Source: Kiritimatiellota bacterium (GTDB lineage Bacteria; Verrucomicrobiota; Lentisphaeria; Oligosphaerales; JAADHN01). From it: a stretch of 64,000 nucleotides of DNA. The notes below the pieces were generated by a model. The model was not told the origin of the DNA and ran no database searches. It saw nothing but the letters and a program-made list of their open reading frames with translations. Below are positions 2,666 to 52,557 of this stretch, one piece after another. The first letter of the stretch is position 1. Each line of letters opens with the position of its first letter. The stretch is from the NCBI GenBank assembly GCA_013151865.1, contig JAADHN010000026.1, positions 1 through 64,000 on the forward strand. Direction: 5' to 3'. Position numbers and translations under genes: made by a program.

Positions 2666-3607
2666 GTCGGTGACTCTCGGCGTTTTTCCCCGAGGTGATT
2701 CGATTCAATTGCCCGCAAACCTCGGGGTGGGCTTTTGCGGGGTAAGTGGAGGGGGCCGTCTCCAGGCAGAGGACGTTCCGGAAACGGCCGCAGCGCGGGC
2801 GGACCTTTTCTGGCCCGATCAATTCATGAACTTCGTGGCGAGAGGGCGCAGTTTACACGGATTCAAGTCATTGCCTCGGCCGATGAGCGGCGACAATGTT
2901 TGAAAAAGTGTGAGATGCGTCATCGCAGCAGATGGCTCATGCATTATTCAGGCTGGAATGCCGTCGAGTCCAAACCGTCCCGAACCAACCCGGAACACCG
3001 ACGCCTCCCGGCCATTCCAAATGTTGTCCAGCCAATTTCGAGTTACACTGTAACATTCAGGGCAACTGACGGCAAGTGCGGACCGGCTTGCTTCACAACG
3101 CCTCAGTCCTATTTGGGACTGAATCGGTAGCGACTTTGGCGCCGTACTCGTGGTTGCGGTCGATCCCGGTCCCGATATCGAGGCGTTTTCCCCCAAGAAA
3201 CCGACCAAGCACGTTGCTTCCTCGGAGGGACAACACGTCTGTGTTCGAAGGTGTTCGAGAAACACGTCGTCGGCACCTGCGACTTGCCTTTTCCACTCCG
3301 GGAAGACAAGTTGCGATGACGGGCGGACAGACCGGCCCCGGCGCCTGCTGCGATGTCTTGCCGGCCGGGCCCTTCTGGCCCGCGGGGGACCACGATCTTG
3401 CCTGGATTATGCGCGAACTTCATCGCGAGGGCGCGCGGCGACGGTTGTAAGCCGGGCGTCCGCTGGGACGCAGCGATCCCGCGACTGTGGGCGAGCGGCC
3501 TTTGGAATGCGGCAAGGCCGTCATCGGACGTAACATGCTGAGAACGCGTGCTCAGGACGGTTGCAGCAGGTGGTTTCGGGAATGATTCAAGGTTGGGGAG
3601 TGACGTC
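2666..3607. other. Gene-free stretch between divergent genes
   Basis: About 940 bp separate the minus-strand propeller gene from the plus-strand glycosidase. No open frame here shows protein-like composition or a ribosome-binding site. It contains one copy of the dispersed repeat (2817-2954) and a possible decayed fragment of the same repeat near 3405-3450. GC-rich inverted sequence occurs around 3345-3390. The promoters of both flanking genes should be here, but I see no convincing -35/-10 pair. Confidence 0.6.
2817..2954 (+). repeat. Dispersed repeat, copy A
   Basis: Two conserved blocks, about 2820-2873 and 2908-2954, reappear in inverse orientation at 38368-38541. By eye, block 1 differs at about 5 of 54 positions and block 2 at about 2 of 47. 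The middle is shorter here and unrelated. Block 2 ends in a stretch reading CTCATGCATTATTCAGGCT. The copy points towards the glycosidase gene that starts about 650 bp downstream. No open frame is conserved between copies, so it is not a coding fragment. Confidence 0.85.
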
Positions 3608-38016: not shown

Positions 38017-38555
38017 GATTCGCCGTCCCGTTCTGGAGCGTCGCCGCGGGCTCAAGCCGAAGCATTCGGAGATTGTCGCGACGGCGCGAAATGTTCCGCA
38101 GGGAGTCTGAAAGGGCGTTCGCCCCAGCCTGAGCCCGGTCAGAAGGAGTGCGTGTCCGCGCCCTTCCGCCTCCGTCCCGCACCTGCGGGACTATGGCGGA
38201 CAAGTCGAGTTGGGGCGGAGGGCAACCCTCCTCCGCCCCGGCGGCGTTTGTGGTTGCCTCCCAGGTAGCCACGTCACGCCACCGGGTCACGCCGAGGCGG
38301 ACAGCGATTCGCCCCTCGCGAAGAGCGACAACTCCCGCGGCTCACGCCCTCTTTGTGGCCGGGCTTTAGCCTGAATAATGCATGAGCCATCTGCTGCGAC
38401 GACGCATCTCGCACATCTTCAGAACAGTGCCGTCGCCCACCGACCGAGGCGGTGTTGAACCACGGCCTCGGCCTCCGTTCGACGCAATGACTTGAATCCG
38501 TATAAGCTGCGCCCTCTCGCGACGAAGCTCATGAATCAATCAAGATAGAAGGCGG
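38017..38555. other. Gene-free stretch holding repeat copy B
   Basis: 539 bp between the end of the aldolase gene and the PIG-L operon, all on the minus strand. The aldolase-side half holds the dispersed repeat (38368-38541). No promoter could be identified in the remaining 350 bp before the PIG-L start. Confidence 0.5.
38368..38541 (-). repeat. Dispersed repeat, copy B
   Basis: Inverse copy of the repeat at 2817-2954, about 174 bp because its middle is longer. Read on the minus strand, block 1 is 38541 down to about 38487 and block 2 about 38414 down to 38368. The middle contains inverted sequence (CCGAGG and CCTCGG arms). It points towards the PIG-L operon. Confidence 0.85.
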
Positions 38556-38571
38556 TCAGCTCCCGACCGCC
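38542..38571 (-). terminator. Possible terminator overlapping the aldolase stop codon
   Basis: On the minus strand a 7-bp stem (GGCGGTC with GACCGCC, 38551-38571) with a 7-base loop is followed by the moderately T-rich TTCTATCTTG. The aldolase stop codon lies inside the hairpin. The T-tract is broken, so this is tentative. Confidence 0.35.
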
Positions 38572-52235: not shown

Positions 52236-52402
52236 GGGTTCGCCGTGAATCTTGGCGCGAGAAGCGGCCGCTTGTACGGATTATTCAGGTTATGGGTGAG
52301 GCCGTGGCGACACGCCGTCCTCCCGGCCGGCAGTCGGCGGCGCCACGCGGAGAATGTGCGAGATGCATCGTCGCGGCAGACGGTTCGTGCATCAGTCAGA
52401 GC
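52236..52402 (+). repeat. Dispersed repeat, copy C (diverged)
   Basis: More diverged copy of the elements at 2817 and 38368. Shared stretches are the GTACGGATT region near 52275, GAGGCCGTGG near 52299 and the right block GAATGTGCGAGATGCATCGTCG near 52351-52372, followed by GCGGCAGA. The order and spacing of the two blocks are kept. It lies between the isomerase gene and the sigma-54 activator gene and points towards the latter, about 155 bp before its start. The 340 bp gap holds no other feature I could support. Confidence 0.65.
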
Positions 52403-52557
52403 GGGCGTGACGTCCCGAAAAACGGGAACAACGGCCCCTACCCGCCCTCTGCGGCGGGGGCGCCGCACGGCTTCCGACCCGACGCCCTCGCGTGGAGCGG
52501 ATGCGGCTTGCCGCGGCAGGCCAGGCGGAGGCGCGTGCAGCAGCAGGAGTCCACGCC

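Follow-up and report, generated by a model that had tools for sequence, protein, structure and literature searches.

The two sequence blocks that an earlier note had picked out as a dispersed repeat are the inverted ends of one hairpin element. This is very likely a mobile element that combines ends of the IS1380 type with a one-strand hairpin conserved at the level of lineages. As judged from their sequence, the blocks appear to be copies of a non-autonomous transposable element of the MITE type.

Copies of the hairpin element in the window

The window, by which we mean the whole 64-kb stretch of DNA that was analysed, carries the features listed in Table 1. The left and right end blocks are present as had been stated, each pattern giving two exact matches in the window versus none in 100 dinucleotide shuffles, while the limits of both copies were corrected from the tips and the flanking duplications. 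The earlier note had also held that the middles of the two copies differ fully. Copy 1 is, however, the 175-bp element minus approximately 36 bp of its centre, and since the remainder aligns after this central loss, the middles do not differ fully. End-to-end folding is seen in both window copies and in the consensus of the source genome, with a minimum free energy of -84 kcal/mol and a z-score of -4.9 for copy 2. A degraded third copy and a possible fourth remnant had been missed; the third was recovered with nhmmer, and no match to it was reported by the covariance model.

Table 1. Positions of the hairpin elements and their parts in the 64-kb window.
Feature	Position	Strand	Remarks
Copy 1 left target-site duplication, CTGG	2810-2813	+	
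Copy 1, hairpin element, 139 bp, centre deleted	2814-2952	+	end-to-end fold retained; covariance model 86.8 bits, E 2.5e-19
Copy 1 right target-site duplication, CTGG	2953-2956	+	
Possible fourth remnant, tip and left box only	3401-3591	+	covariance model 15.1 bits, E 0.09, weak
Copy 2 right-end flank, CTAA	38366-38369	-	
Copy 2, hairpin element, full length, 175 bp	38370-38544	-	covariance model 111.7 bits, E 2e-25
Copy 2 right box, approximate, CGTCGCAGCAGATG region	38388-38402	-	conserved internal-loop side
Copy 2 left box, approximate, CTTCGTCGCGAGAGG region	38512-38526	-	conserved internal-loop side
Copy 2 left-end flank, CTAT	38545-38548	-	decayed duplication, 3/4 bases as in the other flank
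Copy 3, degenerate, between two + strand genes	52244-52404	+	nhmmer 51.7 bits, E 3.6e-14

A gene for a class II fructose-bisphosphate aldolase, on the same strand as copy 2, has its stop codon 11 bp before the start of the element. In another genome (G009; L181, G009:C200), an element tip is again close to a gene for this enzyme, lying approximately 240 bp upstream of it. The proximity of an element to an aldolase gene in both that genome and the window (38370-38558) is probably a coincidence.

Inverted ends and target-site duplications

Terminal inverted repeats of approximately 16 bp (CCTGAWTAATTCATGA) are located at both ends of the element, the tips reading CCTGA...TCAGG. When the flanks of 57 full copies from the source genome were compared, identity at a width of 4 was 0.50 versus 0.39 in shuffled pairings (0/2000), whereas identity at widths of 2, 3, 5, and 6 was not significant; the flank consensus of these copies is YTRR. 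Elements from other genomes are younger, and 40 of 55 are bounded by exact 4-bp duplications, as compared with 18 after shuffling (maximum 28 in 2000 shuffles). The duplicated sequences include CTAG, TTAA, TTAG, and CTAA. Because the TTAG/TTAG and CTAA/CTAA pairs are direct and not inverted, they represent target duplications and are not part of the palindrome. The check for target-site duplications that had been proposed thus returned a length of 4 bp, the only significant width, with CTGG on both sides of copy 1 as the example in the window.

The element therefore has inverted repeats at both ends, a duplication of fixed length, many dispersed copies, and no internal transposase, as is expected of a MITE; with a length of only 175 bp, it has no room for a transposase gene. 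Of the explanations put forward in the earlier note, that of a mobile non-autonomous element is borne out by the inverted repeats, the 4-bp duplications, the high copy number, and the IS1380 ends.

The hairpin is conserved between lineages and decays within the source genome

Pairs of tips in public contigs led to elements in Lentisphaeria, other Verrucomicrobiota, and Bacteroidales, which together represent about 15 lineages. Their length is nearly always 172-178 bp, with 174-177 bp for those reached through pairs of tips, and they fold along the whole length, with inner z-scores of approximately -4 to -9, while the element interiors are near random identity between lineages. The Bacteroidales copies have a high AT content and occur in large numbers, which makes stray contigs an unlikely source, with binning errors possible for single contigs. 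The plasmids, phages, and viral contigs that were searched gave no relevant match.

An alignment of 25 elements, scored like the others against a pairing structure predicted from the same alignment, had 85.0% of its cells paired, versus 66.1% when shuffled and 35-42% when slid, and two-sided changes were found in 54 of 73 pairs. The same pairing picture was obtained with eight single representatives. With one alignment of 15 lineages, whose rows are not fully independent (four are from G049 and two from G324), 85.2% of cells were paired, as compared with 63.2% shuffled and 37-41% slid. Two-sided changes were present in 64 of 72 pairs, and the covariation score was 0.63 versus 0.23. A covariance model built without the genomes G003, G014, G235, G272, G316, G324, and G372 found the held-out elements in all of them, with lengths of 173-178 bp. 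The G003 element spans 175 bp between CTAG and CTAG and folds with -108 kcal/mol, and its inner identity to the other elements is at the level of shuffled sequence. In the hairpins of G235, G272, and G372, the two tips have diverged in concert, the variant tips including CCCGCATTTCTCAC and CGGCCATTTCTCAC, and the box described below, the length, and the YTAR flanks are kept.

Among the copies of the source genome, 87.5% of cells were paired versus 87.1% after shuffling. The two arms here change almost independently of each other, and the copies decay without compensation. RNAalifold with default scoring gave almost no consensus for these copies (-0.72 kcal/mol), which we take to reflect decay and gapped columns; the direct count of pairs settled the question. 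The covarying stems for which the earlier note had suggested a search are thus found between lineages and not among the copies of the source genome, and the description of the repeat as structured holds for the element family but not for the copies of this one genome.

One strand of the hairpin and an internal box are conserved

A box is positioned approximately 20-33 nt from each end of the element, with the sequence TTCGTNRCGAGAG on the left and CTCGYAGYAGA on the right. All 15 lineages show no variation, or almost none, at the bases left unpaired, which are G, U, and GA in the left box and G.A and A in the right one. As far as the sequences can tell, it is the internal loop formed by the box, and not the tip, that marks the family. 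The box sequence was not found in the open-access papers searched.

For a comparison of the two strands, the box, and not the folding, was used to orient the elements. In 14 of 15 lineages, the more stable fold is that of the box strand, with a mean of -84.7 versus -63.2 kcal/mol, and the 15 lineages have 120 G-U pairs versus 43 A-C pairs on this strand. Calculations with DNA parameters gave the same strand preference (sign test 0.001, to be read with caution, as four rows are from one genome). No such bias was seen in the decaying copies of the source genome with the pairs found on both strands (124 versus 137). A preference for one strand together with a number of G-U pairs far above that of A-C pairs indicates selection on single-stranded RNA or DNA, and not on duplex DNA. 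A cruciform in the duplex, or correction by template switching, would treat both strands alike; hence, the constraint would be on the single-stranded form of active elements. We consider an RNA made from the element to be more likely than one DNA strand exposed in the course of replication, and from the predicted folds we would judge the proposal that the hairpin strand acts as RNA to be evenly poised.

One alternative is that the conserved strand is single-stranded DNA, present as a hairpin either at the replication fork or in a circle formed by excision, and that the element moves in the manner of attC cassettes or IS200/IS605, or by means of a DDE enzyme that requires a hairpin. The hairpins of attC and IS608 carry conserved unpaired bases inside the stem, which those of our element resemble, and the strand preference holds when DNA energy parameters are used. 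However, the direct 4-bp duplications point to a staggered double-strand cut, the tips match IS1380 and not the attC core sites, and the excess of G-U pairs suits RNA better. We regard this alternative as possible, but unlikely.

A second alternative would dispense with selection. Template-switch correction is known for imperfect inverted repeats, and such correction of quasi-palindromes at replication could keep the arms complementary while their sequence changes, as is observed. It predicts perfect Watson-Crick arms and equal treatment of both strands, yet one strand is favoured in nearly every lineage and G-U pairs are well above A-C pairs. Furthermore, internal loops with invariant bases persist, the length is constant at 172-178 bp, and the copies of the source genome give no sign of such correction. 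We therefore consider covariation without selection to be improbable.

The ends are shared with IS1380-family insertion sequences

Complete elements of the IS1380 family, approximately 1.6 kb in length, bear the same tips and YTAR duplications in the same class, in the same order (G019), and beyond. Exact YTAR duplications flank 10 of 16 such elements with the same tips, and the transposases of the tip-matching elements are named IS1380 by NCBIfam NF033539, well above the cut-off. The hairpin element thus resembles the IS1380-family insertion sequences (PF13701 / NF033539) in its inverted ends of approximately 16 bp (CCTGAWTAATTCATRA) and in its 4-bp YTAR target duplications. It differs in being approximately 175 bp long without a transposase, whereas the insertion sequences are approximately 1.6 kb long and carry the transposase gene, and the internal box and the full-length hairpin belong to the hairpin element only. 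With respect to membership in IS1380, then, the tips and duplications agree, but the interior does not appear to be derived from IS1380, as the box was found near the ends of none of the 16 IS1380 elements. IS1247, a member of IS1380, is listed with a duplication of 5 bp and not 4 (PMC3281130), so that the clade with 4-bp YTAR duplications is a matter of subgroup.

An IS1380 transposase with matching tips was not found in the source genome or in G015, G049, and G051, and no autonomous copy was present within the approximately 1.2 Mb of the source genome that was examined. Most of the genomes are fragmented MAGs, and missing helpers are therefore weak evidence either way; mobilisation by IS1380 is something that we infer from the ends and the duplications. 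Single tips in G002, G009, G010, and G016 were considered as autonomous elements and rejected, their neighbours being ordinary genes or contig ends. G049, the richest carrier of the hairpin, has an IS1380 of its own (L418:400-1890), whose tips differ (CCTGAATCCGTGA), whose flanks are TTTA, and whose reading frame is interrupted by a stop; in view of the tips and the stop, it is unlikely to be the helper. A 3.1-Mb Verrucomicrobiota genome (G276, loci L389-L417) has 87 IS1380 profile matches, in most of which one or two stop codons interrupt the frame, and these represent a burst of decayed IS1380-like transposases.

The hairpin elements could also be plain internal-deletion derivatives of IS1380, in which the hairpin is a by-product of the inverted ends. 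The tips and the YTAR duplications are held in common, and one real derivative exists, a 650-bp IS1380 with an internal deletion in G010, a genome of the same order (locus L187), which has the arrangement CTAG-TIR...TIR-CTAG. This explanation is very unlikely, given that the hairpin runs the full 175 bp of the element, with z-scores of approximately -4 to -9 for the inner part of axial elements, and that the box, which the 16 IS1380 elements lack, is conserved across lineages together with the length.

Abundance, age, and gene context in the source genome

The source genome is a MAG of 6.2 Mb in 176 contigs that is 97% complete; it belongs to the same order as G015 and would thereby fall in the Lentisphaeria group. 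There were 40 scored matches among 168 candidates in this genome, searches by pattern gave 53 right ends and 90 left ends, and four long contigs taken in full gave a density of approximately 40 copies per Mb, or approximately 250 per genome. The scarcity of further copies that the earlier note had named as grounds for giving up the family is therefore not seen. A covariance model of the kind that it had recommended, built here on the aligned elements from different lineages, recovered all 47 of the candidates scored in the source genome. Copies diverge from the consensus by 12.7% on average (range 4.6-21.7%), and a mean of this size indicates that the family is old in the source genome.

Taking the element out left a site spanned by a coding run in 1 of 55 cases, as compared with 448 of 600 random positions; the copies are almost all intergenic. 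With gene orientation taken from the local six-frame score, the right-hand gene is co-oriented with the element at 26 of 43 copies and opposed at 17 of 43, and in tandem gene contexts the element has the same orientation in 17 cases and the opposite one in 14. The orientation of the element to its neighbouring genes is random. The claim that every copy has the direction of its downstream gene is consequently true of the two window copies only and does not extend to the genome. The structured RNA leader or regulatory module that the earlier note had also offered, a cis-acting element of host genes retained for its function, would fit the strong transcript hairpin, the intergenic sites, the covariation across lineages, and the position of copy 2 directly behind the aldolase gene, but the random orientation, the near-independent arms in the source genome, where copies decay without compensation, target duplications on copies that are 5-22% from the consensus, and the lack of an Rfam family leave it the least probable of the alternatives, with hardly any likelihood.

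At two loci of G015 (L072:1683 and L070:1334), elements abut the remnants of other copies with a CTAG in common. Earlier insertions there supply new YTAR targets.

Comparison with known repeats and RNA families

The window has no match to Rfam (Rfam 15) at the gathering score, and a search of seven loci at E 0.1 gave one sub-threshold match, far below its gathering score, and nothing relevant. Integron attC sites have one strand that folds more stably than the other and bears conserved extrahelical bases, and the hairpin element is alike in both respects. It differs in having no attC core sites, no cassette arrays, and target duplications; identity with attC was rejected because RYYYAAC / GTTRRRY core sites are not at its ends, which have the tips given above.

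REP and REPIN sequences are also intergenic palindromes that are moved in trans and have conserved imperfections in the hairpin (PMC3733652, PMC3116915). REPs are, however, 20-40 bp long, carry a GTAG or CGTC tag on one side, and have a Y1 (RAYT) helper (PMC3733652, PMC3116915), whereas the hairpin element has ends of the DDE-type IS1380; its length of 172-178 bp and its direct 4-bp duplications on both sides rule out identity with REP/REPIN.

Among described repeats, ERIC and YPAL are the most similar in size and folding, the latter with a model length of 168 (PMC2267715). ERIC, YPAL, and Correia/NEMIS are palindromic MITE-like repeats of enterobacteria or Neisseria, and copies of Correia and of ERIC influence mRNA by way of RNase III or of their position (PMC10969869). 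Like the hairpin element, these repeats are intergenic, 100-170 bp long, present in hundreds of copies, and folded end to end. They occur in narrow host groups as far as reported, whereas the hairpin element keeps the same architecture, length, and box in different classes and in no fewer than two phyla, with stems of unrelated sequence. A review of prokaryotic MITEs makes no mention of IS1380 or Verrucomicrobia (PMC10969869).

Two further kinds of element were encountered. One, of approximately 230 bp, has IS1380-type tips and another body (CATGCGAATTYGGCC ... GGCAAACTTGGCTCGTG) in G002 (L177:11995-12227 and L179:14640 onward), with similar tips in G009. As it has a different body and does not fold along the axis, it looks like a separate MITE family of the same order. 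The other is found in Marinimicrobia contigs (L262, L263, and L293), where elements of 177-195 bp with TTAA/TTAA flanks and extra internal copies of the tip fold as two adjacent hairpins, as if an element had inserted in an element.

Discussion

The hairpin elements form a new family of a known kind of element and are more than deletion derivatives of insertion sequences. In the model that we propose, a transposase of the IS1380 type would act in trans by binding the two tips, cutting a staggered 4-bp YTAR site, and inserting the element. A protein might then bind the hairpin strand through the box, with RNA as the more likely ligand and an exposed single DNA strand as the less likely one, and this recognition could promote the movement of active copies or make them better tolerated. 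The copies of the source genome, once inserted, would no longer be maintained, and they decay. A broader proposal is that the elements belong to a widespread family of mobile hairpins of approximately 175 nt, which have borrowed their ends from resident IS1380 elements and added a strand-specific structured RNA or single-stranded DNA of their own with an invariant internal-loop motif, and whose structure has persisted across phyla while the sequence, and in some lineages even the tips, was replaced. We see the prospects of this broader proposal as balanced between right and wrong.

Bacterial MITEs are usually read as the wreckage of insertion sequences. Here, one architecture, consisting of a length, a one-strand hairpin, and a loop motif, is kept in distant lineages while the stems and sometimes the tips turn over, which suggests that the hairpin itself is selected. 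The family would thereby offer a testable case of an element that parasitises a DDE transposase and whose structure is functional, and it would account for approximately 250 repeats in the source genome that lie outside any annotation.
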